Source: Streptomyces sp. SLBN-31 | GTDB lineage: Bacteria; Actinomycetota; Actinomycetes; Streptomycetales; Streptomycetaceae | Direction of reading: 5' to 3' | Assembly (NCBI RefSeq): GCF_006715395.1 | Contig: NZ_VFNC01000001.1 | Span: forward strand, 3,844,001 to 3,908,000 | Length of the DNA: 64,000 bases | Shown: piece by piece, positions 2,030 to 61,734 of the stretch | How the letters are laid out: every line of letters begins with the position of its first letter | How positions within the stretch are numbered: position 1 is the first letter of the stretch | Translations under genes and position numbers: made by a program | Notes under the pieces: model-generated | Database searches by the model: none | The model's input: the letters and a program-made list of their open reading frames with translations, nothing else | Told to the model about the DNA's origin: nothing

Positions 2030-2896
2030 TCATTTCTCCTGCGTGGCCGCCCGGTTCCAGTGGCGGAGCTTGTCAGGGTTGAGGACCGCCCAGATCTGCA
2101 CGACGCGGTCGCCCGCGACGTCCAGGCTGATGACCGCGGCGACCTCGTCGCCGTAGCGCACCACTATTCCGGTGCGGGCGTTGACGGACTGGCAGTGCAG
2201 TGTGGTGCCGGGGCGGCCAGCTAGGAGGGTCAGCAGGCTGCGGGTGACGCGCCGTGCGCCGTGGACGGGCCGGGTCAGGGTTCTGACCTTGCCACCTCCG
2301 TCGAAGAACACCGTGGCGTCCGGTGCCAGGAGGGATGTCAGGCGGGCGGGGTTCTCTGCCACGCAAGCCTGTCGGACCGCTCGCACCACACGGTCGTGCT
2401 GCTGCGGTGTCGTGGGGTGTGCCCACCTGGTCCCAAGGCTGTGCCGGGCCCGGGCGGCGAGTTCGTCGCATTCCTGTTCCGTCTGTCCGACGATGGCGGC
2501 GACCGTCCCCGGAGCCATCCCGAACACGTCGTTGAGGACGAATGCTGCCCGCTCGGCCGGTGACAGCGTGTCCAGCGCCTCGAGGAGGGCCTGGCTCACC
2601 TCTTCGTCCAGGTCCTGAGGGGGCGCCGCGCCGACCGGGCCCGGATGCGACCGCCCGGTCGGCGCCAAGCGCTCCAGACAGATGCCGCCGACGGTCGTCA
2701 CCAGCCAGGACCGGGGTTCGGCGATACGGATCCTGTGGCCGTCGGACAGGCCGTACCAGCGCCGGTAGGCCTCCGCCACGACGTCGTCGGCGTCCTGGCT
2801 CCGGCCCAGCATCCAGTAGGCCACGTTGAGCAGTCGGCGTCGCTCGTCGAGCAGCTCCGCGATCGGCACCGTCTCGTCGTCCTGTACCCGGTCCAT
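2030..2896 (-). CDS. ECF41-type sigma factor with C-terminal SnoaL-like domain (copy 1)
   Basis: 288 residues. Sigma region 2 is seen at about 15-65 (LLNVAYWMLGRSQDADDVVAEAYRRW), sigma region 4 at about 110-160 (TLSPAERAAFVLNDVFGM followed by a helix-turn-helix). The C-terminal NTF2/SnoaL-like extension holds the ECF41 hallmark FFDGGGKVRT and ends with LNPDKLRHWN. In ECF41 proteins this fused domain replaces an anti-sigma factor and controls activity. It belongs to a subgroup without the WLPEP linker found in copies 2, 4 and 5 and is closest to copy 3. It is preceded by its own ECF41 promoter (3020-3049), suggesting auto- or cross-activation, with a leader of about 110 nt. It lies downstream of the ferredoxin reductase gene on the same strand. 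Confidence 0.9.
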   Translation of the reverse strand: MDRVQDDETVPIAELLDERRRLLNVAYWMLGRSQDADDVVAEAYRRWYGLSDGHRIRIAEPRSWLVTTVGGICLERLAPTGRSHPGPVGAAPPQDLDEEVSQALLEALDTLSPAERAAFVLNDVFGMAPGTVAAIVGQTEQECDELAARARHSLGTRWAHPTTPQQHDRVVRAVRQACVAENPARLTSLLAPDATVFFDGGGKVRTLTRPVHGARRVTRSLLTLLAGRPGTTLHCQSVNARTGIVVRYGDEVAAVISLDVAGDRVVQIWAVLNPDKLRHWNRAATQEK

Positions 2897-3019
2897 CTGG
2901 CATCACCCCTTCGCACAGCACCCGAGAAGGCGGTGCCACCCCTGATTCCGGCCGATGTCCGCCGCGGCTCCCGACAATGGGGCAGTCCGCTTTCGTCCGA
3001 CGGGGCCAACCGATGCACT

Positions 3020-3049
3020 GCTGACCGGACAGCGGCAGATCGTGTGACA
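3020..3049 (-). promoter_or_regulatory. ECF41-type promoter of sigma copy 1
   Basis: Minus strand: TGTCACA at 3049-3043, 17-nt spacer, cG-GTCAGC with GTC at 3025-3023. Target is the ECF41 gene at 2030-2896. Confidence 0.7.
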
Positions 3050-3116
3050 CGGTTTCCCGGTCGTACGCGGCGGCGCCCCCGTGCGCAGCGGGCCGCGGTC
3101 ACCCTCGCGGCGGTCG

Positions 3117-4349
3117 TCAGGGCAGAAGGCTGTCCAGGGGCGTCTCGGGATCGGACAGGGCCCGCGTTCGCCACGGAGGCACCGGACTCGACGAGGGCGC
3201 GGACGGAGTCGATGACGTTCCACACGTTCACACTCATGCCCGCCAGGACCCGGTCCCCGGACAACCAGAAGGCGATGAACCGCCGCTCGGCCGGGTTCCC
3301 GCGGAAGACGACGCGGTCGTAGCCGCCGGGCTCGGTGTACCCCGTGTACTCCATCCCGAGGTCGTACTGGTCGGTGTAGAAGTACGGCAGCCGGTTGTAT
3401 GCCGCCTCCTTCCCGGGCATGGCCAGTGCCGCCGTGCGGGGCTGGTGCAGGGCGTTGGCCCAGTGCTCCACCCGCAGATGCCGGCCGAGCCGGGGGTGGT
3501 AGGCATTGGCGACGTCGCCTGCGGCGTGCACGTCTTGGGCCGAGGTGCGCAGACGCTCGTCGGTGACGATGCCGTTGCGCACCTCCAGTCCCGCCGCCTC
3601 GGCGAGCTGGACGTTGGGGGTGATGCCGATGCCCACCACCACGGCGTCGGCGGGCAGTCGGGTTCCGTCGGCGAGCTGGACGCCGTCGGCGCGGGTGCCG
3701 TCACCGGTGATGCGTTCGACGGCGGCGTGGGGCCGCAGGACGACCCCGTGATCCCGGTGCAGGTCGGCGAAGACCTCGGCCGCCCCCCGGCCGAGCACCT
3801 TCAGCAACGGCAGCTCGGAGTGCTCCAGGACGGTCACCAGCGCCCCGGCCGTCCGGGCCGCCGCGGGGGTCTCCAGGCCGATCCAGCCGCCGCCGACGAC
3901 GACGATCCGGCCCCGGGGGTGAAGGCGGCCTTGAGCCGCTCGCTGTCTCCCACGCGGCGCAGGTACAGCACGTTGTCCAGGTCCGCCCCGGGCACGCTCA
4001 GCCGGCGGGGGGAGGATCCGGTCGCCAGGAGCAGCTTGGTGTAGGACATCCGGCGTCCGCCGGTGAGTTCGACCTGGCGGGTGTGTGCGTCGACGGCCGT
4101 CACGCGCGTTCCCGTCATCAGCTCGACGTCGTGCTCGCGGTACCAGTCCTCGGAATGCACGAATATGGACTCGCGGTCCTCCTTGCCCAGCAGGTACCCC
4201 TTGGACAGCGGCGGTCGGATGTATGGACGCTCCGCTTCGTCCCCGATGAGGACGAGCGGGCCGTCGTAGGACTGACGCCGGAGTTCCTCGGCGGCCTTGC
4301 CCGCGGCGAGGCCGCCCCCGACGATCACGAACCCGTTTTCTCGCGACAT
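3117..4349 (-). pseudogene. FAD-dependent ferredoxin reductase (putidaredoxin-reductase family), two compensating frameshifts
   Basis: FAD/NAD oxidoreductase that would pass electrons from NAD(P)H to a ferredoxin. N-terminus FVIVGGGLAAGKAAEELR is the FAD-binding Rossmann motif; the NAD-binding motif VVVGGGWIGLE follows, then the second FAD motif VHAAGDVAN, and the C-terminal RVEHWANAL and ETPLDSLLP typical of the family. The reading frame changes near 3912 (in a C4/G5 run) and returns near 3185 (GCGGGCCC), so start and stop are in the same frame over 411 codons. Both shifts are at G/C runs and could be sequence errors; if real, the enzyme is dead. Start ATG at 4349, after the ECF41 promoter at 4402-4430. 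A likely partner is the ferredoxin at 33664-34047. Confidence 0.75.
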
Positions 4350-4401
4350 GATGTTCCCGTCTCCGCTCGCGCGCACCGGACACTGGTGTGCCCTCGTGCG
4401 G

Positions 4402-4430
4402 AAAGACCGTGGAACCCGCAGGTTGTGACA
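4402..4430 (-). promoter_or_regulatory. ECF41-type promoter of the ferredoxin reductase gene
   Basis: TGTCACA at 4430-4424, 16-nt spacer (the only site not at 17), then GTCTTT. About 50 nt upstream of the ATG at 4349. Confidence 0.6.
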
Positions 4431-4567
4431 CCGGCCCGCGCCGCGCAGACAGCGTGCGGGCCTGCGAGGGCAGAGCGGAGCAGCGCGACGAGGGCGCGGA
4501 CGACGTCCGTGTTCCACGACCGTGGCCGAGGCGGTCCGCAGATCCGCGTCCCTCGTCGCCGCCGGCG

Positions 4568-6344: not shown

Positions 6345-6374
6345 TGTCACACGCGCGGGCCCTCACCTGTCAGT
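6345..6374 (+). promoter_or_regulatory. ECF41-type promoter of the yceI-like gene
   Basis: TGTCACA at 6345-6351, 17-nt spacer, GTCAGT from 6369. Drives 6491-7063 and probably the ferritin-like gene behind it. Confidence 0.65.
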
Positions 6375-9228: not shown

Positions 9229-9258
9229 AAGGACCGTGTGCGTGTCGCAAGTGTGACA
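9229..9258 (-). promoter_or_regulatory. ECF41-type promoter of the exported hydrolase
   Basis: TGTCACA at 9258-9252, 17-nt spacer, cG-GTCCTT. Start codon at 9192. Confidence 0.7.
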
Positions 9259-9269: not shown

Positions 9270-10901
9270 CTAGTCTTTTTTGCTGGTGAAGTGATGTTTG
9301 CCGGTGATTTCCCTGTACTCCTGGACGGTGGGTTTGAGGATCTGTGTCCCCTCGCCGTAGAAGCCGCGGCTGAGCCGCGCGCGCAACCGCCGCACCCTGC
9401 CGCTCGCGTGGCCGTCTCCGTCGCGTTGTCCCGGGTCGAGGGGCCGGTACTGCTCATGCGCCGTGAGGGCATGGAGTTCGTAGGGGTCGAGGGGCTGGTG
9501 CACCTCGACGTACTCGCCGTGCGGCAGGCGCTTGATGATGCCCGTCTCGCGGCCGTGCAGGACCTTGTCGCGATCGCGGCGTTGCAGACCGAGGGCGATG
9601 CGCTTGGTCACGAGGAAGAGGACGACCGGTACCACGAAAAGGGCGATGCGGACCGTCCAGGTGACCGTGTTGACCGACATGTGGAAGGTCATGGCGATGA
9701 TGTCGTTCGCGGCTCCGAGCAGAGCCGCCAGGTACACCCCGAGCCATGCCACGCCGAATGCCGTGCGCACGGGCCGGTTGCGTGGCCGTTCCAGTAGGTG
9801 GTGTTCGCGGTCGTCGTCGGTGACCCAGGCCTCGATGAACGGGTAGGCGCCCATGACGAGGAAGAAGCCGAGGCCGGCGAGGAGAGGGATCAGATTGTCC
9901 AGGGCCAGGGTGTGGCCCCAGAGATTCACCTCCCACCCGGGCATGACACGCAGCAGCCCGTCGGCGATGCCCATGTACCAGTCGGGCTGGGATCCCGCGG
10001 AGACCTGATCGGCGCGATAGGGGCCGAACTCCCAGACGGGGTTGATCTGGGCGATCGCGGCGATGGTGAAGACGACCCCGGCGACCAGGCAGAAATAGCC
10101 ACCCGCCTTGACCACGTACACCTGCATCGGCGGGCCGACCACGTTTCGCTCCGTACGGCCAGGTCCCGGGTACTGGGTGTGTCGGTGCCGGTGCCCGAGG
10201 AAGGCGTGGAAGGCGACGAGCGCCAGCATCAGCGCCGGAATGACCAGGACGTGGATCATGTGGAAGCGGGGCACCAGGTCGTGCCCGGGGAACTCGCCGC
10301 CGAACAGGAACATCGACACGTAGGTGCCGACGATCGGTACCGACAGAAGTGTCCCGTTCACCACGGCGAGCCCGGTTCCCGACAGGAGGTCGCCGGGGAG
10401 GTCGTAGCCGGTCAGACCACCGAACATGCCGAGGACGAGCAGTGCGAAACCGGCCACCCAGTTCAGCTCGCGCGGCTTGCGGAAGGCGCCGGTGAAGAAC
10501 ACGCGCATCAGGTGGGCCAGCAGGGCTGCGACGAAGATCAGTGCCGCCCAGTGGTGGGCCTGACGGATGAGCAGGCCGCCGCGTACGTCGAAGGAGATAT
10601 GCATCGTCGAGTCGAACGCCTCGGACACCAACTGGCCGCGCAGCGGAGCGTAACTGCCGTCGTAGACGACCTCGTTCGACGACGGGTGGAAGTAGAACGT
10701 CAGATACACGCCGGTGATGAGCAGGACGACGAAGCTGTAGAGACAGATCTCGCCCAGCAGGAACGACCAGTGCTCCGGACGGGCCCTGCGTGTGCCGGTC
10801 GTGGTGGTGGACCCGATCCCCATCCGTGTTCTCGCCCAGTCGGCGATCTTGCCACCGCTGCGGCTGCCCGCCGTGGTGACCGGTTCGATTGCGTCGCTCA
10901 T
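9270..10901 (-). CDS. Solo cytochrome b of the bc1 type (QcrB-like), copy 1
   Basis: 543-residue membrane protein related to QcrB, the cytochrome b subunit of the actinobacterial bc1-aa3 system that oxidises menaquinol. Several transmembrane helices are evident. Heme-ligand His pairs appear in RQAHHWAALIFVAALLAHLMRVF (split here) and HMIHVLVIPALML...AFHAF. The quinol-oxidation site motif reads SQPDWYMGIADGLLRVMPGWE, equivalent to the PEWY loop. The usual partners QcrA (Rieske) and QcrC (cytochrome c) are absent on both sides, so it is an orphan that must borrow partners or work in a different complex. It shares about two thirds of its residues by eye with copy 2 at 61795-63426. Promoter at 11011-11040 is ECF41-type. 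Confidence 0.88.
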   Translation of the reverse strand: MSDAIEPVTTAGSRSGGKIADWARTRMGIGSTTTTGTRRARPEHWSFLLGEICLYSFVVLLITGVYLTFYFHPSSNEVVYDGSYAPLRGQLVSEAFDSTMHISFDVRGGLLIRQAHHWAALIFVAALLAHLMRVFFTGAFRKPRELNWVAGFALLVLGMFGGLTGYDLPGDLLSGTGLAVVNGTLLSVPIVGTYVSMFLFGGEFPGHDLVPRFHMIHVLVIPALMLALVAFHAFLGHRHRHTQYPGPGRTERNVVGPPMQVYVVKAGGYFCLVAGVVFTIAAIAQINPVWEFGPYRADQVSAGSQPDWYMGIADGLLRVMPGWEVNLWGHTLALDNLIPLLAGLGFFLVMGAYPFIEAWVTDDDREHHLLERPRNRPVRTAFGVAWLGVYLAALLGAANDIIAMTFHMSVNTVTWTVRIALFVVPVVLFLVTKRIALGLQRRDRDKVLHGRETGIIKRLPHGEYVEVHQPLDPYELHALTAHEQYRPLDPGQRDGDGHASGRVRRLRARLSRGFYGEGTQILKPTVQEYREITGKHHFTSKKD

Positions 10902-11010: not shown

Positions 11011-11040
11011 AGGGACCGGGAAAGTGGTGAAGGTGTGACA
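11011..11040 (-). promoter_or_regulatory. ECF41-type promoter of qcrB copy 1
   Basis: TGTCACA at 11040-11034, 17-nt spacer, cG-GTCCCT. Leader of about 100 nt to ATG 10901. Confidence 0.7.
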
Positions 11041-11382: not shown

Positions 11383-11412
11383 TCTGACCGTCCGAAGGGA
11401 GTCCCTGTGACA
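11383..11412 (-). promoter_or_regulatory. ECF41-type promoter of the whiB-like gene
   Basis: TGTCACA at 11412-11406, 17-nt spacer, cG-GTCAGA with GTC at 11388-11386. Confidence 0.7.
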
Positions 11413-12430: not shown

Positions 12431-12941
12431 CCACGCGGGCGTCGCTCTCGCCGAGGAGGAGATGCCGCAGGAGGGGATCCGCGTCCTGGGAGCCGAGATC
12501 GCGGACCGCGTCCCGGACGACCTGTTCGTAACGGGACGCGGTACGACGCAGCGCGGCGTGCCCCGCCGGGGTCAGCAGCACCTGCACGCCGCGCCGGTCG
12601 TGGTCGACGACGCTCGAGATGATCAGGCCCTGTCGGCGCAGGCGTGCCATCAGCCTGCTCGTGGCGGACTGACTCAGGCCGAGCCCGTTGGCCACATCCC
12701 CGAGCCGCAGGGGTTCGGCGCCGGCGCCCGGGACGGAGCTCCTTCCCACGTAACGCAGAGCCTGAACTTCACTCAACCCGAACCCGGTCTCCTCGCGCAG
12801 CCGCCGCTCCACCGTCCCCTGGACCCGGCGGTGAAGGCGGTCGAGGGCGTCCCACCGGTCGGTCGCGCAGGACTGAGTGCGATCGTCGGCAGGGCCGGTG
12901 CGCACCTCGCGCACCACCTCCCCGTGCGACGTGCCGGTCAT
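12420..12941 (-). CDS. MarR-family transcription regulator
   Basis: 173 residues. The winged helix is seen in GFGLSEVQALRYVGRS, then LRLGDVANGLGLSQSATSRLMARLRRQGLI and the wing VDHDRRGVQVLLTPAG (segments). Such dimers normally repress nearby genes and release DNA on binding a phenolic ligand or on oxidation. Its ATG overlaps the stop of the truncated ECF41 gene (ATGA at 12938-12941), so the two are translationally coupled and should be made in fixed ratio. The converging hydrolase at 11504-12430 is the obvious candidate target. Confidence 0.88.
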   Translation of the reverse strand: MTGTSHGEVVREVRTGPADDRTQSCATDRWDALDRLHRRVQGTVERRLREETGFGLSEVQALRYVGRSSVPGAGAEPLRLGDVANGLGLSQSATSRLMARLRRQGLIISSVVDHDRRGVQVLLTPAGHAALRRTASRYEQVVRDAVRDLGSQDADPLLRHLLLGESDARVVIR

Positions 12942-13669
12942 GCGGTGGCCCGGTAGGAAGACGCGCCGTCGCGTGCGGCCGTCCCCCCGCCGGAGTACGG
13001 CGCGTCCTGGCCGGTCAGCACGTGCTCCAGACGGTCGAGGTCTCCTGTGCGGGCGGCGGTGAAGATGGCCTGAACGAGCCGCCGATGGGTGGCCGCGTCC
13101 ACGTGCTGCCGGTGCCGCCGGTTGTTCAGTCTGTCCTGCGCGCGGGAGACCTGCTGCCGTACGTTCGCCACGGACAGGCGGAGCAGGTCGCCGATCTGGT
13201 CGTAGGAATAGCCGAACGCCTCGCGCAGCACGTACGCCGCGCGCTGGTTAGGGGTAAGGGTCTGCAGAAGCAGTAGAACGGCATGCTCCACCGAGTCCTG
13301 GCGTTCGGCCAGGGCCTCCGGTGTCATCGTGGTGTCCGTGGACTCCGGCAGCCAGGGGGTGGCACTGGACTCGCGGCGTCTGCGAGCCGACTGCAGCACG
13401 TTGATGGCGAGCCGGACGGTCGTCGTGCGGAGCAGCGCACCGGGGTCGGCGACGACCGTGCGGTCCGTGCCCTGCCAGCGCAGCCACGCCTCCTGGATGA
13501 CGTCCTCGGCTTCGCCGGGATCTCGGAGGATCCGGTTGGCGATCTTGAGCAGTCCTGGCCCGACGCGGCCGAACACGAAGACCGCGTCGTTGAGTTCTAC
13601 AGGCGCGGCAGTGATGGTCACCATCACCGACTGCGGACTCTGCCGGGTTGCGATCACAGATGTGTCCAC
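12938..13669 (-). CDS. ECF41-type sigma factor lacking most of the C-terminal regulatory domain (copy 2)
   Basis: 243 residues from GTG at 13669 (AGAGGAG 6 nt upstream). Sigma region 2: RILRDPGEAEDVIQEAWLRW; linker WLPESTDT, a variant of the ECF41 WLPEP motif; sigma region 4: LTPNQRAAYVLREAFGYSYDQIGDLLRLSVANVRQQVSRAQ (segments). The SnoaL-like domain begins (FTAARTGDLDRLEHVLT) but stops shortly after YSGGGTAARDG, just past the DGGGK position, about 80 residues short of copies 4 and 5. In studied ECF41 proteins, partial removal of the extension can yield a strongly active sigma factor while full removal abolishes activity, so this natural truncation may be a deregulated form. Coupled to the MarR gene. 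No ECF41 promoter precedes it. Confidence 0.85.
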   Translation of the reverse strand: MDTSVIATRQSPQSVMVTITAAPVELNDAVFVFGRVGPGLLKIANRILRDPGEAEDVIQEAWLRWQGTDRTVVADPGALLRTTTVRLAINVLQSARRRRESSATPWLPESTDTTMTPEALAERQDSVEHAVLLLLQTLTPNQRAAYVLREAFGYSYDQIGDLLRLSVANVRQQVSRAQDRLNNRRHRQHVDAATHRRLVQAIFTAARTGDLDRLEHVLTGQDAPYSGGGTAARDGASSYRATA

Positions 13670-17129: not shown

Positions 17130-18314
17130 TCAGCGTATGTCCTCGAACGCCGCCGCCTCGACGATCTTCTTCACGGTGGTCAGATAGCGGGCGGCGTCCG
17201 CGCCGTCAATCAGCCGGTGGTCGTAGGAGAGCGAGAGGTGGACCAGTTCGCGGACACCGATGAACTCTTCGTCGCCGTCCTGTACGACCGCGGGCCGTCT
17301 GACCGCGGCTCCCACGCCCAGGATGGCCGCCTGGTCCGGCGGGACGATGAGGGTGTCGAAGAGGGCGCCGCGTGTTCCGGTGTCGGAGACCGTGAAGGTG
17401 GCTCCGGCCACGTCCGCGGGCGTGAGTCGGCCGGCGAGGGCGTGGTCGGTGAGGTCGTGGACGGCACGGGCGATGCCGCTGACGGTCAGATCGCCCGTGC
17501 CCCGCACCACTGGAGTCACCGGCCCCTGGTCGGTGTCGACCGTGATGCCGACGTTCTCGGTGTCGTAGTACGTGATGGTCGCGCCGCCCGTGTCGATCCT
17601 GGCATTGATGACGGGATGTGCCTTGAGCGCCTGGGCGGCGGCCAGGACGAAGAACGGCAACGGTGTCAGGGCGAAGCCCTCGCGGGCCATGAAGCCGTCC
17701 GCTGTCCGCCGCCACAGCCGCAACAGGCCGGTGGCGTCGGCCTCGACGGTGGAGGTCAGCTGCGCCTGCTCCAGCAGCGCCTGCTTGAGACTGTCGCCGA
17801 CAGCCTTGCGCAGGCGGGGGACGGCGGCGGTGTGCCCGCGCAGGGCGGCCGGTGGCGGAGCCGCTGCCGTTGCCGCTGCTGGGATGGGGAGCGGAGTCGG
17901 AGCGGCCGCGGGTGCCGGTGCCGGCATCGGGGCGGGTGCGGCGGCGGGTGCGGGGTGCGGCATTGGCGCCGTGGCGGGCGGCTGCGCGACCGGTGCCGGT
18001 GAGGGGGAGGGCTGCGGTGTGGTTACCGGCGGGGCCGGGGCGGCGGTGACCGCGGTCGCCGTCGACGGTTCGGCGTCGGGCGGGCCGATGACGGCGAGCT
18101 CGGCGCCCACTTCGACCGTCTCGTCCTCGCCGACGACGATGGTCAGCAAGACTCCTGTGGCGGGAGCGGGGATCTCGGTGTCCACCTTGTCGGTGGACAC
18201 CTCCAGCAGCGGTTCGTCCTCCTGGACGTGCTCGCCGGGCTGCTTAAGCCAGCGGGTCACGGTGCCCTCGGTGACGGACTCGCCGAGCGCGGGAAGGGGC
18301 ACGGAAATAGTCAT
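17130..18314 (-). CDS. 2-oxoacid dehydrogenase E2 (dihydrolipoyl acyltransferase) without a visible subunit-binding domain
   Basis: 394 residues. Lipoyl domain at 1-80 (PALGESVTEGTVTRWLK, lipoylated Lys in VSTDKVDTEI). A long Ala/Pro linker runs from about 85 to 160. It then goes directly into the catalytic core (VPRLRKAVGDSLKQAL, AQLTSTVEADATGL) ending in SYDHRLIDGADAARYL, which carries the acyltransferase His and Asp. The peripheral subunit-binding domain that normally sits between linker and core and holds E1 or E3 is not recognisable. It would transfer acetyl from E1 to CoA. It starts 18 bp after aceE and belongs to the NmrA-aceE-E2 operon driven from 21941-21970. No E3 gene is present here. 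Confidence 0.88.
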   Translation of the reverse strand: MTISVPLPALGESVTEGTVTRWLKQPGEHVQEDEPLLEVSTDKVDTEIPAPATGVLLTIVVGEDETVEVGAELAVIGPPDAEPSTATAVTAAPAPPVTTPQPSPSPAPVAQPPATAPMPHPAPAAAPAPMPAPAPAAAPTPLPIPAAATAAAPPPAALRGHTAAVPRLRKAVGDSLKQALLEQAQLTSTVEADATGLLRLWRRTADGFMAREGFALTPLPFFVLAAAQALKAHPVINARIDTGGATITYYDTENVGITVDTDQGPVTPVVRGTGDLTVSGIARAVHDLTDHALAGRLTPADVAGATFTVSDTGTRGALFDTLIVPPDQAAILGVGAAVRRPAVVQDGDEEFIGVRELVHLSLSYDHRLIDGADAARYLTTVKKIVEAAAFEDIR

Positions 18315-18331
18315 GGCGGCGTATGGCTCCT

Positions 18332-21019
18332 TCAGGTGTCCAGGCCGTAGTGCTTGCGGGCGCGGTCGACGGTGTCGGGGTCCACTTGTCCGGCCCGTGC
18401 CAGCCGGTCCAGGGCCGTCACGGTGATCGATTCGGCGTCCACACGGAAGTAGCGCCGTACGTCCTCGCGGGTGTCGGACAGGCCGAATCCGTCCGTGCCC
18501 AGTGAGTAGTAGTCCTGCTCGATCCACTGGCCGATCTGGTCGGGGACCTGGCGCATCCAGTCGCTGACGGCCAGGACCGGACCCGGCGCACCGGCGAGCG
18601 CCTCGGTCACGAAGGGCACACGTGTCTCGCCGCGCGTGCGGGCGGTGTCGGCGTCCATCGCGTCCCGGCGGAGCTCCGTCCAGGAGGTCACCGACCAGAC
18701 ATCGGCGCGCACGTTCCAGTCGGCGGCGAGTAGTGCCTGCGCGCGCAGTGCCCAGTGGACGGCGGTGCCGGAGGCCAGGAGCTGCAGCCGGGGGCCGGAC
18801 ACGGCGGGGTCGCCGGGCCGGAACGGGTACAGGCCGCGGACGATGCCCGCCTCAATGCCGGGCAGCGCCGGTATGGGCGGCTGGGGCTTCGGCTCGTTGT
18901 AGACCGTGAGGTAGTAGAAGACGTTCTCGGGCCGCTCCCCGAACATCCGGCGCAGGCCGTCGCGGACGATGACCGCGATCTCGAAGGCGAAAGCCGGGTC
19001 GTAGCTGACGGCCGCCGGGTTGGTGGCGGCCAGGAGATGCGAGTGGCCGTCGCCGTGCTGGAGACCTTCGCCAGTCATGGTGGTGCGTCCGGCGGTGCCG
19101 CCGACGACGAACCCGCGGCCCATCTGGTCGGCTAGGGCCCAGAACTGGTCGCCGGTGCGCTGGAAGCCGAACATGGCGTAGAAGATGTAGAACGGGATCA
19201 TCGGCTCGCCGTGGGTGGCGTACGAGGTCGCGGCGGCGGTGAATTCGGCCATGGAACCGGCTTCGGTGATGCCCTCGATGAGGAGCTGCCCGGTCTCGCT
19301 CTCCCTGTAGTGCAGCAGCTGGTCGGCGTCGACGGGGTCGTAGGTCTGGCCCCGCGGCGAGTAGATGCCGGCCGTGGGGAACATCGACTCCATGCCGAAG
19401 GTACGGGCCTCGTCGGGGATGATCGGCACCCAGCGGGGGCCGGTGCGGCCGTCCCGCATCAGGTCCTTCACCAGGCGGACCAAGGCCATGGTGGTGGCGA
19501 CTTCCTGGTGGCCGAAGCCCTTGAGCAGCGCCTCGAACGGCTGCGCGGCGGGCTCCGGCAGAGGCTTGGCGATCACACGGCGCGCGGGGGTGGGACCGCC
19601 CAGTGCGGCGCGCCGCTCGCGCAGGTACCGCACCTCGGGCGAGTTCTCCCCCGGATGCCAGAAGGGGACGACGTCACCGGCGAGGGCGCTGTCGGGGATG
19701 GGCAGGTCCAGCACGTCGCGCAGCTCACGGAACTGCGCCATGGTCAGTTTCTTCATCTGGTGGTTGGCGTTGCGGGACTCGAACGCCGATCCGAGGGTGT
19801 GCCCCTTGACCGTCTGGGCGAGGATCACCGTCGGTGCCCCCCGGTGTTCGACGGCGGCCCGGTAGGCGGCGTACACCTTCAACGGCTCGTGCCCACCGCG
19901 GGAATTCTCGAACAGCTCCACCACCTGGGCGTCGCTCAGGGTGGCGGAGAGGGCGGACAGGGCGTCTCCGACGAAGAAGTTCTTGCGGATGTAGGCGGCG
20001 TCCCGCGCGGCGAAGGTCTGCATCTGGGCGTCGGGCTCCTCGCCCAGGCGGCGCACCAGGTCGCCGGTCGTGTCCTGGGCCAGCAGCGGGTCCCAGGCCT
20101 CGCCCCACAGGGTCTTGACCACGTTCCAGCCCGCCCCGCGGAACCGGGCCTCCAGCTCCTGCACAATCTTGGAGTTGGAGCGCACGGGTCCGTCGAGGCG
20201 TTGCAGGTTGCAGTTGATCACGAAGGTGAGGTTGTTCAGGCCCTCACGGGAGGCCAGCGTCAGGGCGGCCGTGGCCTCCGGTTCGTCCGTCTCCCCGTCG
20301 CCGAGAAACGCCCACACGCGTGAGGCGGAGGTGTCCTTGATGCCGCGGGCCTGCAGGTAGCGGTTGAAGCGTGCCTGGTAGACGGCGTCAAGAGGGCCGA
20401 GGCCCATGGACACGGTCGGGAACTCCCACAGCCACGGCAGGCGCCTGGGGTGCGGGTAGGACGGGAGGCCGTGACCGCCGGCCTCGCGCCGGAAGCCGTC
20501 CAACTGTTGCTCGCTCAGGCGGCCTTCGAGGAACACCCGGGCGTAGATGCCCGGCGAGGCGTGCCCCTGGAGGAACAACTGGTCGCCCGAGCCGTCCTGT
20601 TCCTTGCCACGGAAGAAGTGGTTGAAGCCGATCTCGTACAGCCAGGCCGCCGAGGCGTAGGTGGAGATGTGTCCGCCCAGGCCGAGCCGGGAGCCGCGGG
20701 TGACCATGGCTGCGGCGTTCCACCGGTTCAGGGCGGTGATCCTGGTTTCCATGGCGATGTCGCCATCGAACGCTGGCTGCGCGGCCGCCGGGACGGTGTT
20801 GACGTAGTCCGTGGTGAGCAGCCCCGGCACGGACAGGCCGGCGCGGGCCGCGTACTCGTGCACGCGCCGGATCAGGTACACCGCCCGATCGGGTCCGGCG
20901 TTGCGTATGACGGCGTCGAGGGAGGCCTGCCACTCGGCGGTCTCCTCGCGGTCACGGTCTGGAAGCTGGTCGAGCTCACTACTCGACGGGGTCGCGTTGG
21001 GCCGGGACGGGTCACTCAT
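18332..21019 (-). CDS. aceE: Pyruvate dehydrogenase E1 component, homodimeric type
   Basis: 895 residues, normal for actinobacterial AceE. The thiamine diphosphate motif is GDGETDEPE followed by [18 protein letters not shown]-terminal segments [51 protein letters not shown] and the C-terminal [11 protein letters not shown] are family landmarks (shown in pieces). It decarboxylates pyruvate and passes acetyl to the lipoyl arm of E2 encoded next to it. In Streptomyces the housekeeping aceE is usually a stand-alone gene elsewhere, so this is probably an extra, conditionally expressed copy. It is separated from the NmrA gene by 87 bp on the same strand and most likely read from the ECF41 promoter at 21941-21970. 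Confidence 0.93.
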
Positions 21020-21940: not shown

Positions 21941-21970
21941 GTTGACCGGACGAAAGGTGTTGTTGTGACA
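21941..21970 (-). promoter_or_regulatory. ECF41-type promoter of the NmrA-aceE-E2 operon
   Basis: TGTCACA at 21970-21964, 17-nt spacer, cG-GTCAAC. The first start codon is 98 nt downstream. Confidence 0.7.
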
Positions 21971-22618: not shown

Positions 22619-22648
22619 TGTGACCGGTGGGCACGCTCCGATGTGACG
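22619..22648 (-). promoter_or_regulatory. ECF41-type promoter of the cupin gene (CGTCACA variant)
   Basis: CGTCACA at 22648-22642, 17-nt spacer, cG-GTCACA. ATG at 22565. Confidence 0.6.
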
Positions 22649-23635: not shown

Positions 23636-24044
23636 GCGAATCCTCCGACGAAGGAGCGGTGGGGGAGGGGAGCCGCGGTTCCCGTCGGGCGCGGCTGGGG
23701 TACCGGGTGTCGTGGCCGGGCGCGTTACCGGCCCGATCGCTGCCGGGCCCGGCCCTCGGAGACAGTGTGCACAGTGTGCATGAGAAGGTTGTTTTGTTAG
23801 TGTCAAGAGTGTTGGCATCATAATGGCCACGTGTGTGCACGGCGTGATCTCCTCATCACGGGGGACTGTCTTCCCGCACAGACCGGCCTTCGCCACCTGC
23901 TGTGACAGCGAAACAAGCCCTGCTCAGCGCCGTGCGCGTCAGGGCCGGACGGACCCCGCGGTCCGTGACGGCCCGAAAGTGCGGGGTCCCGGGCGCACTC
24001 ACCGCGTCCGGTCCGAACAGGCGCGGAACATCCGACCGACTTAG
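23636..24044. other. Long intergenic region with short direct repeats
   Basis: Holds the ECF41 promoter at 23878-23907 and, nearer the hydrolase, two direct copies of AGTGTGCA (about 23763-23780) and a TTGACAC box on the minus strand near 23805. The long leader of the hydrolase spans it. No ORF with plausible coding features was seen. Confidence 0.4.
23878..23907 (-). promoter_or_regulatory. ECF41-type promoter of the hydrolase at 22688-23635
   Basis: TGTCACA at 23907-23901, 17-nt spacer, cG-GTCTGT with GTC at 23883-23881. Confidence 0.6.
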
Positions 24045-24878: not shown

Positions 24879-24884
24879 CTTTGG

Positions 24885-24914
24885 TGTCACACATCTGCCG
24901 CGGGCCTGGTCTCA
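24885..24914 (+). promoter_or_regulatory. ECF41-type promoter of the two-hydrolase operon
   Basis: TGTCACA at 24885-24891, 17-nt spacer, tG-GTCTCA. Drives 24957-25907 and 25957-26676. Confidence 0.75.
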
Positions 24915-27227: not shown

Positions 27228-27257
27228 TCAGACCGTGCGGGGCGCCCGACTGTGACG
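27228..27257 (-). promoter_or_regulatory. ECF41-type promoter of the osmC-like gene (CGTCACA variant)
   Basis: CGTCACA at 27257-27251, 17-nt spacer, cG-GTCTGA. Confidence 0.65.
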
Positions 27258-28948: not shown

Positions 28949-29671
28949 ATGGATCATGTCGTTGGCGCGGTACCGCTCGCCGAGTCGCTCGACGAACGGC
29001 GGCACCTGCTGGACGTCGCCCGCCGCGCGCTCGGCAGCCGCGTCGCGGCCGAACGCGTCGTCGACGAGGCCTACCAGCGGTGGTACCGCCTCACCGATCC
29101 GGAGCGGGTCCGGATGCCGTCCCCCCGGGTCTGGCTCACCCAGGTCGTGGACGAGGCGTGTCTGATGCGACCGGCGTCGGCCTGGCCCGGTGGGGAGGAA
29201 CGGGAGATCCGGGCCCTGCGGGCGTTGTGCGACGAGGACGTGGAACCGGTCGAGCGGGCCCGGTTGAGTGTGGGTGCGCGGCAGGCGCGGCCCGTGTCGG
29301 CGGGTCGCGAGCATGAGATCACCGTTTCCGTGCGGCAGGCGTGCAGCGATCAGGACGGCCCCCGACTGAGGTCGCTGCTGGCCCCCGATGCGACGGCCTT
29401 CTTCGACAGCGGCGGCAAGATCCGGGCGCAGACGCGGCCCGTCCGCGGTGACGAGCAGGTCGCCCGCAGCCTGTTGGTCCTGCTGGCTGGACAGCGGCGT
29501 GTGACGCTGTGCACCGGATTGGTCAACGGGCGCACCGGCCTCGTCGCCCGGTGTGACGACCAGGTCGCCGCGGTGCTGACCCTCGACATCGCGGACTCGC
29601 TGGTCGTTCAGGTCTGGGCGGTGCTCAACCCCGACAAGCTGCGTAGCTGGAACCGTTCCCTTCCCGGGTGA
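28949..29671 (+). CDS. ECF41-like protein with sigma region 4 deleted (copy 3)
   Basis: 240 residues from MDHVVGAVPLAESLDERRHLL. Sigma region 2 is conserved (RALGSRVAAERVVDEAYQRWYRL). The C-terminal SnoaL-like domain is full length, with FFDSGGKIRAQTRPVRG for the DGGGK motif and LNPDKLRSWNRS at the end. Between them, where copy 1 has about 70 residues forming sigma region 4, only about 40 remain (RALRALCDEDVEPVERARLSV), with no helix-turn-helix. It therefore should not read a -35 element. The reading frame is maintained across the deletion, so it may still bind core polymerase through region 2 and act as a competitor, or it may be an early relic. It converges with copy 4 and overlaps it by 47 bp. 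Confidence 0.8.
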   Translation: MDHVVGAVPLAESLDERRHLLDVARRALGSRVAAERVVDEAYQRWYRLTDPERVRMPSPRVWLTQVVDEACLMRPASAWPGGEEREIRALRALCDEDVEPVERARLSVGARQARPVSAGREHEITVSVRQACSDQDGPRLRSLLAPDATAFFDSGGKIRAQTRPVRGDEQVARSLLVLLAGQRRVTLCTGLVNGRTGLVARCDDQVAAVLTLDIADSLVVQVWAVLNPDKLRSWNRSLPG

Positions 29672-30714: not shown

Positions 30715-30744
30715 AACGACCGGGGGACCGAGGACGCTGTGACA
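30715..30744 (-). promoter_or_regulatory. ECF41-type promoter of sigma copy 4
   Basis: TGTCACA at 30744-30738, 17-nt spacer, cG-GTCGTT with GTC at 30720-30718. Start codon at 30629. Confidence 0.7.
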
Positions 30745-31666: not shown

Positions 31667-31696
31667 TATGACCGGGAATTGATCGGCGCTGTGACA
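31667..31696 (-). promoter_or_regulatory. ECF41-type promoter of the NmrA gene
   Basis: TGTCACA at 31696-31690, 17-nt spacer, cG-GTCATA. ATG at 31622. Confidence 0.75.
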
Positions 31697-33502: not shown

Positions 33503-33532
33503 TACGACCAGGTGGAGTGACGGTTTGTGACA
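33503..33532 (-). promoter_or_regulatory. ECF41-type promoter of the flavoprotein gene
   Basis: TGTCACA at 33532-33526, 17-nt spacer, tG-GTCGTA. Back to back with the ferredoxin promoter at 33563. Confidence 0.75.
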
Positions 33533-33562: not shown

Positions 33563-33592
33563 TGTCACACCCCGGCCGCCGGGCCGGTCATA
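33563..33592 (+). promoter_or_regulatory. ECF41-type promoter of the ferredoxin gene
   Basis: TGTCACA at 33563-33569, 17-nt spacer, cG-GTCATA. ATG at 33664. Confidence 0.75.
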
Positions 33593-34134: not shown

Positions 34135-35031
34135 TCAGGCCCCCAGGGACAGGACGTAGGGGTTCAGCTTGACCGGGTTCATCACCCACATGATGCGCTC
34201 GATGCCGGCCTCGGACGCGTCCACGCACAACAGCGCCACCGGGGCGTCTTCTCGTGCGACGAGCACGGCGGGCCGGCCGTTGGCCTCGACGAACCGGGTC
34301 TCGGCATCCGGCCAGAACCGCGGGGCGAAGGCGGCCAGGTAACGCGAGACGTGATCGCGGCCGATGACGGGGATCCTGGACGCGCCGCGGATGCCGCCGC
34401 CGTCCGAATAGCTGACGACGTCCGAGGTCAGCAGGTCCTCCAGGGTGGAGAGATCTCCCGTGCGCGCGGCGGAGAGAAAGCCTTCGAGCAGACGCCGGTG
34501 GGCCGCGGGGCTGACGCGCTCCTTGCACTCGGCGCCCAGGTGCTTGCGCGCCCGGCTGACCAGCTGCCGAGCGTTCGCGTCGCTGGTCTCCAGGATGTCG
34601 GCGACGCGGCGGTAGGGGTAGTCGAACGCCTCCCGCAGCACATAGGCGGCGCGTTCGATCGGGTTGAGCTTCTCCATCAACAACAGCACCGCCAGCTCGA
34701 GCGCCTCGGCGCGTTCCGCCCCCAGGTGCGGGTCCTGGGTGGTGTCGACCGGCTCGGGGAGCCAAGGCCCGACGTAGGCCTCCCGGCGTACCCGCGCGGA
34801 CTGGGCCAGGTTGATCGCTAGCCGGGTGGTGACCGTGGTCAGGAAGGCGGCTGGTTCATGGATCTGCGCGCGGTCGGTGTTCTGCCATCGCAGCCAGGCG
34901 TCCTGGATGATGTCCTCGGCCTCGACGGCACTGCCGAGGATGCGGTACGCGATGCCGAACAACCGCGGTCTGGCGGAGAGGAAGTCGTCGAGACCGCGGT
35001 CGAACGTGTCGGGGTGGGCGCCAGCGCGCAT
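34135..35031 (-). CDS. ECF41 sigma factor with C-terminal SnoaL-like domain (copy 5)
   Basis: 298 residues, the closest to a textbook ECF41. Region 2 RLFGIAYRILGSAVEAEDIIQDAWLRW, linker WLPEPVDT, region 4 LNPIERAAYVLREAFDYPYRRVADILETSDANARQLVSRARKHL (in pieces), extension with YSDGGGIRGASRIPVIGR and a terminal WVMNPVKLNPY. Unlike copies 1 and 4 it has no TGTCACA promoter upstream, so it may be expressed constitutively or from another sigma factor and could sit at the top of the cascade. It converges with the ferredoxin gene, 87 bp apart. Confidence 0.93.
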   Translation of the reverse strand: MRAGAHPDTFDRGLDDFLSARPRLFGIAYRILGSAVEAEDIIQDAWLRWQNTDRAQIHEPAAFLTTVTTRLAINLAQSARVRREAYVGPWLPEPVDTTQDPHLGAERAEALELAVLLLMEKLNPIERAAYVLREAFDYPYRRVADILETSDANARQLVSRARKHLGAECKERVSPAAHRRLLEGFLSAARTGDLSTLEDLLTSDVVSYSDGGGIRGASRIPVIGRDHVSRYLAAFAPRFWPDAETRFVEANGRPAVLVAREDAPVALLCVDASEAGIERIMWVMNPVKLNPYVLSLGA

Positions 35032-35248: not shown

Positions 35249-35278
35249 TGTCACACATGCGCCCGGTGCCCGGTCACC
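35249..35278 (+). promoter_or_regulatory. ECF41-type promoter of the cupin gene
   Basis: TGTCACA at 35249-35255, 17-nt spacer, cG-GTCACC. About 40 nt to the start. Confidence 0.75.
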
Positions 35279-39181: not shown

Positions 39182-39211
39182 GAAGACCGAGGGGTGCAGG
39201 CGTCTGTGACA
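39182..39211 (-). promoter_or_regulatory. ECF41-type promoter of the carboxylate-reduction operon
   Basis: TGTCACA at 39211-39205, 17-nt spacer, cG-GTCTTC. Back to back with the promoter at 39252. Confidence 0.75.
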
Positions 39212-39251: not shown

Positions 39252-39281
39252 CGTCACAACCACACGTGTCTCGCGGTCTGA
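39252..39281 (+). promoter_or_regulatory. ECF41-type promoter of the GNAT gene (CGTCACA variant)
   Basis: CGTCACA at 39252-39258, 17-nt spacer, cG-GTCTGA. Confidence 0.65.
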
Positions 39282-42232: not shown

Positions 42233-42262
42233 ACTGACCGGACAGGGGGCGCGCTTGTGACA
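42233..42262 (-). promoter_or_regulatory. ECF41-type promoter of the 77-residue protein
   Basis: TGTCACA at 42262-42256, 17-nt spacer, cG-GTCAGT. Confidence 0.7.
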
Positions 42263-42668: not shown

Positions 42669-42698
42669 ATTGACTGGGCAGCGCCCCGGATCGTGACA
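42669..42698 (-). promoter_or_regulatory. ECF41-type promoter of the 85-residue protein (TGTCACG variant)
   Basis: TGTCACG at 42698-42692, 17-nt spacer, cA-GTCAAT. Confidence 0.5.
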
Positions 42699-42764: not shown

Positions 42765-42794
42765 TGTCACAGATACGTGTGTGCCCCTGTCTCA
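42765..42794 (+). promoter_or_regulatory. ECF41-type promoter of the PP2C phosphatase gene
   Basis: TGTCACA at 42765-42771, 17-nt spacer, cT-GTCTCA. Start codon chosen at 42902. Confidence 0.7.
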
Positions 42795-47381: not shown

Positions 47382-47466
47382 GGACTTTCCCTTCATTGAT
47401 CTCGCACGGCGCCCGGGGGTCTGCGGCGGCCTCGTCCACGGCACCGGTCGCGATGGTTCGTACCCT

Positions 47467-47496
47467 CCTGACCAGGCGGCCCCGGCATCTGTGACA
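47467..47496 (-). promoter_or_regulatory. ECF41-type promoter of the NmrA-CMD operon
   Basis: TGTCACA at 47496-47490, 17-nt spacer, tG-GTCAGG. Confidence 0.75.
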
Positions 47497-47535
47497 GGGC
47501 GGCGCACAAAGATTTCGCGCCGCTGTCGATCGCCC

Positions 47536-47793: not shown

Positions 47794-47835
47794 GCGTCCT
47801 CCTACGACAGCGAACGGACAGGATCATTGGTTGGG

Positions 47836-47865
47836 ATCGACCGGCCAGGCCCCCGATTTGTGACA
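47836..47865 (-). promoter_or_regulatory. ECF41-type promoter of the flavoprotein remnant
   Basis: TGTCACA at 47865-47859, 17-nt spacer, cG-GTCGAT. Confidence 0.7.
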
Positions 47866-57274: not shown

Positions 57275-57304
57275 CTTGACCGGACCGCGAATTACCTTGT
57301 GACA
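57275..57304 (-). promoter_or_regulatory. ECF41-type promoter of hmp
   Basis: TGTCACA at 57304-57298, 17-nt spacer, cG-GTCAAG. Confidence 0.7.
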
Positions 57305-57694: not shown

Positions 57695-57724
57695 TGTCAC
57701 ACCGAGTGCCGACGACCGGTCTAG
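57695..57724 (+). promoter_or_regulatory. ECF41-type promoter of the NDH-2 gene
   Basis: TGTCACA at 57695-57701, 17-nt spacer, cG-GTCTAG. Start 32 nt downstream. Confidence 0.75.
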
Positions 57725-57755
57725 AGGGTTAGGACCGAGAGGAACAGAGGACACC

Positions 57756-60643: not shown

Positions 60644-60649
60644 GCCCGA

Positions 60650-60679
60650 CATGACAACGTATGAGCATAGTGTGTGACA
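60650..60679 (-). promoter_or_regulatory. ECF41-type promoter of the methyltransferase
   Basis: TGTCACA at 60679-60673, 17-nt spacer, tT-GTCATG. Predicted start of transcription near 60643. Confidence 0.7.
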
Positions 60680-60709
60680 GCGAGGACAGGCGACCGCAGC
60701 GCGGACCGT

Positions 60710-60739
60710 TGTCACAGAAGCACACGGTGCGCAGTCAAA
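60710..60739 (+). promoter_or_regulatory. ECF41-type promoter of the hydroxyacid dehydrogenase
   Basis: TGTCACA at 60710-60716, 17-nt spacer, cA-GTCAAA. The ATG at 60750 is about where transcription should begin. Confidence 0.7.
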
Positions 60740-60749
60740 GTACGTCGTC

Positions 60750-61688
60750 ATGACCGCGCGATCCCCCCAGGTATGGCTGCCCGCACAGTTCGGCCGCCTC
60801 GCCGATCTGCCCCCCGGCCTCGATTACGCCCGCTGGGACGGCCGTTCGGCCTTTCCCACGGACCCGGCGGAGGTCGAGTTCTACGTGCCCCCGCTGACCA
60901 AAGACATCAGTGTCATTGCCCGGCCGCTGGCCCGGATGACCCGGCTGCAAGCGGTGCAGGCGCTCAGCGCCGGGACCGACGAGCTGCGGGCGGCACTGGA
61001 CCGGCAGCCCCGTGAGGTGACCTTGTGCAACGCGAAGGGGGTGCCGGCTGCAGCCACGGCCGAGCTGGCCCTGACGCTGATCCTCGCCAGCCTGCGCGGC
61101 ATACCGGAATCGCTCCGCGCCCAGGACCGGGAGGACTGGGACCCGCGGACGTTCTCCACCCTGTACGAACGGTCCGTGCTCATCGTCGGTCACGGCGCCG
61201 TCGGCTCCGCCCTGGAGAAGCTCCTGACGCCCTTCGGCTGCACCGTCACCCGCGTCGGGCGCGCGGACAGGGACACGCCCCAAGGGCCGGTGCGCTCCGT
61301 GTCGCTGCTGCCCCGGCTCGTCGCGGACGCCGACGTGATCGTGCTGTGCACTCCGCTGACCGCGGCGACCCGCGGGCTCTTCGATGCCGCACTGCTGTCC
61401 CGCGTCAAGGACGGCGCCCTGCTCGTCAACGTGTCCCGGGGCGCGGTCGTTGACACCGACGCCCTGCTGAAGGAGGTGCACGGCGGCCGGCTGCGGGCCG
61501 CCCTCGACGTTAGCGACCCCGAACCGCTCCCGCCGGGCCACCCGCTCTGGACCGCGCCCGGCGTCCTGGTCACCCCGCACGTCGGCGCTTTCACCCCCGA
61601 TCTGTGGCCCCGTCTCGAAGCGCTCGTGCGACGGCAGCTGGCCCGGTTCGTCGCGGGCGGGGAACTGGAGAACGTCGTCACACGCTGA
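60750..61688 (+). CDS. D-isomer-specific 2-hydroxyacid dehydrogenase
   Basis: 312 residues. NAD-binding motif VLIVGHGAVGSALEKLL, catalytic Arg in VNVSRGAVVDTDALL, Glu in DVSDPEPLPPGHPLW and His in VTPHVGAFT; N-terminal AVQALSAGTDEL. The family reduces 2-oxo acids to D-hydroxy acids with NAD(P)H. The start lies only 11 nt after the -10 element, so translation is probably leaderless. It is divergent from the methyltransferase. Confidence 0.92.
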   Translation: MTARSPQVWLPAQFGRLADLPPGLDYARWDGRSAFPTDPAEVEFYVPPLTKDISVIARPLARMTRLQAVQALSAGTDELRAALDRQPREVTLCNAKGVPAAATAELALTLILASLRGIPESLRAQDREDWDPRTFSTLYERSVLIVGHGAVGSALEKLLTPFGCTVTRVGRADRDTPQGPVRSVSLLPRLVADADVIVLCTPLTAATRGLFDAALLSRVKDGALLVNVSRGAVVDTDALLKEVHGGRLRAALDVSDPEPLPPGHPLWTAPGVLVTPHVGAFTPDLWPRLEALVRRQLARFVAGGELENVVTR

Positions 61689-61704
61689 CACGAGGCCGCC
61701 CGAG

Positions 61705-61734
61705 TGTCACACCCTTGCGTCCTCACCGGTCTTG
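61705..61734 (+). promoter_or_regulatory. ECF41-type promoter of qcrB copy 2
   Basis: TGTCACA at 61705-61711, 17-nt spacer, cG-GTCTTG. Confidence 0.75.

Follow-up and report, generated by a model that had tools for sequence, protein, structure and literature searches.

A genomic island of Streptomyces sp. SLBN-31 with clustered putative ECF41-type promoters and its candidate ECF41-derived regulators

ECF41 sigma factors are abundant in actinobacteria, and only a single target was found in the study that first described them. Here we describe a stretch of 64,000 nucleotides from Streptomyces sp. SLBN-31 (contig NZ_VFNC01000001.1, positions 3,844,001 to 3,908,000; hereafter the window), which contains 28 sites built like ECF41 promoters. 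They delineate a genomic island about 60 kb long, which also encodes five ECF41-related proteins, here named W1 to W5. Based on the comparisons described below, we suggest, with a probability of about 0.6, that the island forms one regulon driven by its own ECF41-type sigma factors W2, W3 and W4, and that W1 likely regulates it in trans. In islands of this kind, sigma factors, a likely regulator and a regulon of respiratory and detoxification genes recur together.

Clustered promoter-like sites and the island

All 28 sites in the window were checked individually. The upstream box is TGTCACA in 24 sites, CGTCACA in three and TGTCACG in one, and the gap between the box and the following GTC is 17 nt in 27 sites and 16 nt in the remaining one (4430, minus strand). 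The base preceding GTC is G in 23 sites, T in three, A in two and C in none, and the commonest form is TGTCACA-N16-GGTC. An earlier note on this DNA had listed the same boxes and spacers with G at 23 of 28 sites, and its counts were reproduced exactly. When TGTCACA was searched by itself, 33 copies were found in the window, with GTC at exactly +17 in 23 of them and at any other offset from 5 to 39 in no more than four. In 60 first-order Markov simulations of the window, the exact TGTCACA-N17-GTC pattern appeared 0.12 times (maximum two) against 23 observed, which rejects a chance origin of the sites, and TGTCACA boxes appeared 5.8 times against 33. The previous estimate of about two chance boxes was thus too low, although the conclusion drawn from it stands. 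Over the whole genome (9.47 Mb), the exact pattern occurs 32 times and a backward control pattern four times. Since 23 of the 32 exact matches lie in the window, which makes up 0.7% of the genome (binomial P 3e-43 for the enrichment), an equal site density over the genome is ruled out; this comparison inside and outside the window had been proposed in the earlier note, and its outcome favours the cluster.

None of the 28 sites falls inside a called gene, though genes cover 76% of the window according to our own simple caller, and every site is followed by an open reading frame (ORF) in the matching direction. The claim that each site precedes a correctly oriented gene holds to this extent, with the qualification that the genes behind three sites (4430, 9258 and 21970, all on the minus strand) are frameshifted in the window, one is a remnant, and two are ORFs of fewer than 90 amino acids. 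We also considered that the motifs might be binding sites of another regulator, such as a transcription factor encoded by the island, instead of sigma factor promoters. The island does encode WhiB-, MarR-like, TetR-like and LuxR-type regulators, but the two boxes are asymmetric, keep a fixed 17-nt spacing and are oriented with the genes, and the -35 box matches that of the ECF41 consensus exactly. In addition, GTC is followed immediately by A/T, by a G-rich stretch at positions 6-7 and by a purine-rich one at 10-12 nt, so that we regard this explanation as very improbable.

The island can be delimited by comparison with a near relative (G140). With an identity of about 95%, 87% of the window is present in G140, in the same order between roughly 0.5 and 60.7 kb, against only 2% and 5% of the 40-kb flanks of the window, with G140 sequence reaching about 16-20 kb past the block. 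For twelve further pieces from other strains, the shared fraction is 19-72% for the window and 0-6% for the flanks; most of them extend little past the block, and their flank contrast therefore says less.

Promoter form and its recurrence across genomes

The sites were compared with the known ECF41 systems (Ecf41Bli, Ecf41Rsp and SigJ, 5xe7), with which they share the TGTCACA -35 box and the 17-nt distance to GTC. The promoter published for ECF41 in the available text of PMC3426412 is TGTCACA-n16-CGTC with a single target transcript, whereas we found about 28 promoters, mostly of the GGTC form, in one island. The equation of the sites with TGTCACA-N16-CGTC is correct for the -35 box and the spacing and fails at the base before GTC, where C occurs in 0 of 28 sites in the window and in three of 436 sites (G 368, T 59, A 6) at loci chosen by their protein, which are the best 80 of 583 matches. 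Plain identity with the CGTC signature was rejected on these counts. At 24 ECF41 loci outside islands, this base is C in 18, T in five and G in one, and the lone G belongs to the locus of a W3-type sigma factor (L261); a W3-type locus of the SLBN-31 genome outside the island (L209), with GGTC and TGTC, was excluded from the 24.

When we compared region 2.4 among the sigma factors having a site in their own locus, those with SIDVLRSAR or QALxRLRTL were associated with CGTC or TGTC and those with AINxAQSAR with GGTC or TGTC, without crossover; no AINxAQSAR sigma factor linked to CGTC was found among these loci. W2, W3 and W4 have AINxAQSAR where the CGTC-linked factors have SIDVLRSAR, and from this association we infer that they would read GGTC. 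If this is true, the GGTC regulon would be insulated from the CGTC promoters of the host's ECF41 factors. The GGTC dialect seems to avoid cross-talk with resident paralogs, several of which are encoded in the same genome outside the island, and it would be useful for orthogonal expression tools. A second W3-type sigma gene of this genome lies outside the island with GGTC and TGTC sites of its own (G000:C1:2545183-2546278, L045), possibly the seed or the remnant of a smaller island.

With respect to regulon size, PMC3426412 is in line with the statement that ECF41 factors usually control one or two genes. On the other hand, according to a title cited in PMC8999054, motility and lateral flagella of Azospirillum are controlled by an ECF41 factor, so that a single target is not universal. 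The known ECF41 regulon consists of a single adjacent target of the COE type, whereas COE genes are here among the targets of 28 sites; carboxymuconolactone decarboxylase and oxidoreductase targets are common to both. The titles and abstract beginnings of the open-access literature on ECF41 mention no clustered ECF41 regulon and no trans-acting ECF41 relative, and the papers searched do not report the complementary motif losses of W1 and W2 described below. The OsdR regulon of Streptomyces coelicolor is similar in that one regulator governs many stress genes in the region of the regulator genes, and different in that OsdR is a response regulator with some 50 target genes or clusters that are not confined to an island, according to the available part of PMC5069765.

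At least 10 TGTCACA-N16-GGTC sites are present in 37 of 392 genomes of the genus, including SLBN-31 itself, and most of the genomes have 0-4; one of the 37 (G149) reaches this number partly through a repeated element that contributes three of its 11 sites. We compared 28 island pieces from 23 other strains, with 5-31 sites each. Site retention depends on gene identity. With near-identical strains omitted, a site precedes the SdhA-like ortholog in 19 of 20 matches, and sites are likewise kept before ferredoxin reductase (13/13), WhiB (14/14), ferredoxin (9/9), carboxymuconolactone decarboxylase (14/15), cupin (16/17), QcrB (10/11 and 10/11), NmrA-like (20/23 and 20/23, two queries with paralogs unseparated), NDH-2-like (12/14), esterase (11/13), OsmC (8/9) and methyltransferase genes (8/11). 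The island genes that have no site in the window are also without one in other strains, namely aceE (0/14), the E2 gene (0/8) and a gene of the MFS family (0/9), and the homologs of the two LuxR-type regulators in other islands have a site in 0 of 15 and one of 15 cases.

Next, the ORFs that follow the sites were grouped by single linkage, with paralogs merged; the 29 pieces used contain 483 sites, and a confident ORF was assigned to 412 of these. Counted over 21 strains (the window strain and 20 others, without the near-identical G140, G084 and G242), the promoter-linked families are NmrA-like (21 strains), SdhA-like and W1 (19 each), cupin (15), ferredoxin reductase, a second OsmC family (Ohr-like) and AhpD-like (14 each), W2, NDH-2-like and esterase (13 each), QcrB and a 95-aa protein (12 each), a second cupin, methyltransferase and ferredoxin (10 each), and OsmC (9). 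The names Ohr and NDH-2 are our own readings, for which Pfam gives OsmC and Pyr_redox_2.

As a motif-independent sample, 79 named genome loci with an SdhA-like protein were taken from the protein-chosen set. They contain 441 sites in 1.57 Mb, against one and none for two control patterns, and at least one site is found in 70 of the 79. The nine loci without a site comprise one from a Catenulispora metagenome-assembled genome (MAG; L166) and eight from Microbacteriaceae (L187, L188, L190-L195), in which the SdhA-like protein has 84-85% identity and no site is nearby. The DNA flanking aligned orthologous sites is only 32-34% identical, and the bases just before GTC are 77% identical. Outside the genus, a scan for TGTCACA-N15-CGGTC in 287 sampled genomes of the phylum found none with more than four sites, and the named loci of the protein-chosen set include Embleya (L139, nine sites), a Catenulispora MAG (L184, seven), Actinacidiphila (L133, six; L175, five) and 'Nocardiopsis sp. 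FR4' (L130, six). The clustered ECF41-type regulon put forward from the window sequence is well supported by the site density, by the sites kept before orthologs and by the ECF41-related genes of the island, two of which have their own site.

ECF41-related proteins and a putative two-protein switch

Three of the five proteins are ECF41-type sigma factors. W3 scores 345.8 bits against the SigX4 model (cut-off 323.25), matches Pfam sigma regions r2 and r4_2, and matches SnoaL_2 weakly (20.5 bits, cut-off 27). It has the ECF41 architecture of sigma2, sigma4 and a C-terminal SnoaL extension of about 100 residues, with the linker YVGPWLPEP that contains the WLPEP motif of ECF41. W2, which shares this architecture and the WLPEP linker, scores 325.0 bits, just above the cut-off. 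For W1 and W2, we assembled sets of 94 homologs each (93 of 120 listed hits plus the window protein, near-duplicates removed by hand). In the W2 set, WLPEP is present in 94 of 94, NPDKL in none (mostly NPSKI) and DGGG[KR] in none, and conservation peaks in the sigma regions. W2 forms of 174-243 residues do not have the NPDKL-bearing domain, and most of the SnoaL domain is absent from W4. The extension after sigma4 in the measurable short W2 and W4 forms is 37-66 residues (62 in the W4 of the window), with one of 7 in G087.

W1 shows a complementary pattern. Its SigX4 score (178.7 bits) is below the cut-off, and WLPEP is absent from the W1 family in all 37 island copies, all 94 homologs and all 26 further loci (25 from new genomes), while NPDKL is present in 37 of 37, 89 of 94 and 25 of 26, respectively, and DGGG[KR] in 94 of 94 homologs. 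In canonical-type loci, by comparison, WLPEP and NP-x-K[LI] occur together in 23 of 24, with NPDKL itself in six. The mean net charge of the sigma4 recognition helix is -0.65 in the W1 family (n=31), against +4.3 in W2 (28), +3.1 in W3 (22), +3.0 in W4 (12) and +3.1 in canonical factors (9), and the identity of region 2.3-2.4 to W2/W3 is 16% for W1 and 46% for canonical ECF41s. The best-conserved part of W1 is the SnoaL motifs (76-78%). SigJ (5xe7) aligned with positions 8-281 of the W1 profile (295 positions) and with only 15-232 of the W2 profile (311). The Pfam PhyR sigma-like domain was matched by 25 of 94 W1 homologs and three of 94 W2 homologs (E<=0.001). W5 has no Pfam match and forms a family of its own with W1. 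The whole-gene ratio of nonsynonymous to synonymous substitution rates (dN/dS) is 0.31-0.52 for W1 and W5, and thus neither looks like a pseudogene. Based on these observations, W1, together with W5, is probably not an ordinary sigma factor, and W1 appears to have lost its DNA-reading features while keeping the SnoaL domain. The description of all these genes as ECF41 copies is accordingly right for W2, W3 and W4, and does not fit W1 and its paralog W5, which do not have the sigma features that define ECF41.

W1-family and W2 genes are frequently adjacent. When W5 is counted with the W1 family, 22 of 24 W2 genes (at least 57% identity) have a W1-family gene no more than 400 bp away, with the latter convergent or W2 downstream (19 of 21 without three near-identical strains), against none of 19 W3 genes and one of 15 W4 genes. 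A WLPEP-bearing ORF also lies within a few kb in 11 of the 26 further W1-type loci, two of which are copies in one genome. In 22 of 24 strains, a W1-family gene is preceded by a site; in G087 the gene has no site, and G105 has no gene. At 55% identity or more, W1 was found in 15 of 18 genomes with at least 10 sites, in neither of two with seven sites and in none of 20 without sites. Sixteen of the 18 were new (G105 and G364 are in both sets), and W1 was found in 14 of these 16. Two matches of 39-42% in zero-site genomes are intact ECF41 relatives. A W1 homolog consisting of SnoaL only is present in L277 (G336, 1486-1899 minus; 138 aa from the first ATG) with a GGTC site 58 nt upstream. In the tree, W1 (100/100) groups with L276, L278, L290 and L291, which are ECF41 relatives bearing both motifs (100/99), and W2-W4 fall in a separate clade (100/97). 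Since W1 and W2 are in different clades, we rejected the idea that they are halves of one split gene, and their placement indicates that two ECF41 lineages decayed in complementary ways.

In ECF41 factors, NPDKL of the SnoaL domain is reported to contact the YVGPWLPEP linker in cis (PMC7730460), and the extension is called inhibitory in PMC8999054. According to PMC3426412, removal of the distal part of the extension raises activity about 20-fold (Bacillus) or 120-fold (Rhodobacter) and full removal abolishes it; the hyperactive variant keeps 37 residues by our own subtraction (204 minus 167). Unlike these systems, the island has several ECF41-derived factors, among which the linker motif is found in W2 and the NPDKL motif in W1. 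We propose that W2-W4 would drive transcription of the island regulon and that the NPDKL motif of the W1 family would contact the GPWLPEP linker of W2 in trans, replacing the cis contact of ECF41. As a member of the regulon made from the regulon's own promoter, W1 would feed back on it, most likely negatively, and this brake would most likely be released through a ligand of the SnoaL pocket. Truncated ECF41s described in the literature are hyperactive, and W2 and W4 in their short forms may behave in the same way. Thus a one-protein ECF41 switch would have become a two-protein one, consisting of brake-poor W2/W4 and the trans regulator W1, within a mobile and insulated GGTC regulon; we see the odds of this fuller scheme as even. 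The weakest step of our proposal is the trigger, which is likely organic peroxide, electrophile or quinone/respiratory stress, as suggested by the content of AhpD-like, OsmC, NmrA-like reductase, flavohemoglobin-like, spare QcrB and NDH-2-like genes. Such a natural domain swap, with a separable regulator and sigma factor and dozens of target promoters, makes the mechanism and the signal directly testable.

Partner switching by sigma factor mimicry is the mechanism of the PhyR-NepR-EcfG system. As far as the available descriptions go, W1 would resemble PhyR as a sigma-derived protein regulating sigma factor activity, and the system is known in Alphaproteobacteria whereas W1 occurs in Actinobacteria. 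In addition, W1 has no receiver domain in the Pfam search and keeps the ECF41 SnoaL domain. SigG1-RsfG of Streptomyces tsukubaensis (ECF56) pairs a SnoaL_2-bearing ECF factor with an adjacent antagonist protein, in which it resembles our proposal; the available text of PMC7730460, however, does not present RsfG as derived from a sigma factor and gives it no conserved Pfam domain, and SigG1 has no NPDKL.

Several observations weigh against our proposal, and some of them fit other explanations. In the window, W1 passes the Pfam cut-offs for sigma region 2 (35.8 vs 24 bits) and region 4 (27.6 vs 25.7), and its homologs match region 4 in 89 of 94 and region 2 in 67 of 94 cases (E<=0.001). Together with the promoter at the W1-family gene in most strains and the overall purifying selection on W1 (dN/dS 0.32-0.52), this would be expected if W1 were the real master, a divergent sigma factor of the ECF41 group that is autoregulated and reads all GGTC promoters, with W2-W4 as accessories. 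We consider this unlikely in view of the region 2.3-2.4 identity and sigma4 helix charge of W1 given above, the absence of WLPEP from all its homologs, and the persistence of the sigma4-less paralog W5 and the SnoaL-only L277.

W3, in turn, is a full ECF41 that retains WLPEP plus an NPxKL motif, so that an ordinary ECF41 may suffice. It is conceivable that W3, or the ECF41-type factors outside the island, for which the -35 box is identical, read the real regulon and that W1 is decaying without a regulatory role. This is a decidedly improbable account, since CGTC is the form at ECF41 loci outside islands and is almost absent from island sites, and a decaying W1 does not agree with the high conservation of its SnoaL motifs, with dN/dS values below 0.53 for both W1 and W5 or with the promoter linkage of the W1-family gene in 22 of 24 strains.

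The remaining points bear on the putative switch formed by W2 and W1 and on our sampling. Cis control may persist in W2, as a SnoaL-like extension is retained by most W2 proteins. Regional dN/dS values are noisy, with the sigma2 region of W1 above 1 in three of four comparisons, one of them undefined. In the window, W1 is 27 kb from W2, whose neighbour is the paralog W5; W1 is absent from three of the 18 high-count genomes (G105, G149 and G153); and W1 and W2 are not sister lineages. The strains used for gene content were nearly all picked by their GGTC count and form a non-random sample, and the identity of the two boxes among aligned sites (97% and 100%) was preset by the search itself.

Features of the window

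The sites and the genes behind them are listed in Table 1, with downstream genes assigned by Pfam and NCBIfam. The site-linked genes are mainly redox and respiratory, and they include two ECF41-related genes (W1 and W2).

Table 1. Promoter motifs and main genes of the window in order of position.
Feature	Position	Strand	Source or remark
Motif TGTCACA-N17-GTC (GGTC) before W1	3023..3049	-	
W1, ECF41-derived; DGGGK and NPDKL SnoaL motifs, without WLPEP linker	2030..2896	-	
Motif, N16 spacer, before ferredoxin reductase	4405..4430	-	
Ferredoxin reductase-like, frameshifted	3165..4349	-	N-terminal frame 3834-4349; later domains in other frame, matched to ~3165
Motif before YceI-like gene (6491-7063)	6345..6371	+	
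Motif before frameshifted alpha/beta-hydrolase (8349-9192) with secretion-signal-like N-terminus	9232..9258	-	
Motif before qcrB paralog	11014..11040	-	
QcrB cytochrome b paralog	9270..10901	-	NF050120, 709.9 bits
Motif before WhiB-family gene (11077-11343)	11386..11412	-	
W4, short ECF41-type sigma factor, 228 aa, most of SnoaL missing, no site	12938..13624	-	
Pyruvate dehydrogenase E1 (aceE) and E2 genes, no site directly upstream	17130..21019	-	
Motif before the third NmrA-like gene (NAD_binding_10; 21223-21843), which has a frameshift close to its 3' end	21944..21970	-	
Motif (CGTCACA) before cupin gene (22071-22565)	22622..22648	-	
Motif before alpha/beta-hydrolase (22688-23635; start uncertain)	23881..23907	-	
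Motif before Abhydrolase_3 esterase-like gene (24957-25907)	24885..24911	+	
Motif (CGTCACA) before OsmC-family gene (26769-27173)	27231..27257	-	
W5, paralog of W1 (240 aa) in which no sigma region 4 is recognisable; convergent with W2	28949..29671	+	
Motif before W2	30718..30744	-	
W2, ECF41-type sigma factor, WLPEP linker, degenerate NPDKL motif	29625..30629	-	
Motif before NmrA-like oxidoreductase (30876-31622)	31670..31696	-	
Motif before SdhA-like flavoprotein	33506..33532	-	
SdhA/FrdA-like stand-alone flavoprotein, core regulon gene	31740..33437	-	Below curated cut-offs of named families
Motif before ferredoxin FdxA (33664-34047)	33563..33589	+	
W3, full-length ECF41 sigma factor, no site	34135..35031	-	Above NCBIfam SigX4 cut-off
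Motif before cupin gene (35319-35786)	35249..35275	+	
Motif before acyl-AMP-ligase-like/aldehyde-dehydrogenase-like genes (36600-39093)	39185..39211	-	
Motif (CGTCACA) before GNAT gene (39338-39997)	39252..39278	+	
Motif before 77-aa ORF (41957-42190)	42236..42262	-	
Motif (TGTCACG) before 85-aa ORF (42331-42588)	42672..42698	-	
Motif before SpoIIE-type phosphatase (43013-44140)	42765..42791	+	
Motif before NmrA-like (46638-47396) and AhpD-like carboxymuconolactone decarboxylase (46083-46553) genes	47470..47496	-	
Motif before N-terminal remnant of second SdhA-like gene	47839..47865	-	
Motif before flavohemoglobin-like gene (56000-57199)	57278..57304	-	
Motif before Pyr_redox_2 oxidoreductase (57756-59114), NDH-2-like by our reading	57695..57721	+	
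Motif before methyltransferase (59879-60652)	60653..60679	-	
Motif before 2-hydroxyacid dehydrogenase (60750-61688)	60710..60736	+	
Motif before second qcrB paralog (61861-63426)	61705..61731	+	

The Rfam scan of the window at gathering scores found nothing, and a tRNA-Thr call at 14118-14197 was rejected, as it overlaps a gene and is unsupported by Rfam. The 77-aa ORF has 45% identity over 49 residues to the 95-aa family and looks helical or coiled-coil by eye; a Pfam match was found neither for this ORF, which was represented in the search by a longer frame and by its 95-aa relative, nor for the 85-aa ORF. The frameshifts at 3165-4349, 8349-9192 and 21223-21843 look the same whether they come from assembly error or from decay. 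Two further genes may be cut short or have misassigned starts, namely a short-chain dehydrogenase piece (27333-27563) and a TetR-type regulator (28242-28787) that matches its Pfam domain from position 20 onwards only. Two large regulators of the AAA and LuxR type (GerE) at 14167-16938 and 48010-50790 have no site of their own.

The remnant of the second SdhA-like gene (47380-47865) retains its own motif, and the two sites here are 369 bp apart in the window and 1771 bp apart in G140, which leaves room for an intact copy. Behind the site at 39211, an aldehyde-dehydrogenase/LuxC-like gene and a weakly acyl-AMP-ligase-like gene stand in tandem, and fatty-aldehyde-type chemistry is possible for them. 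Finally, the SLBN-31 genome contains eight full-length QcrB genes, two of which are located in the island.

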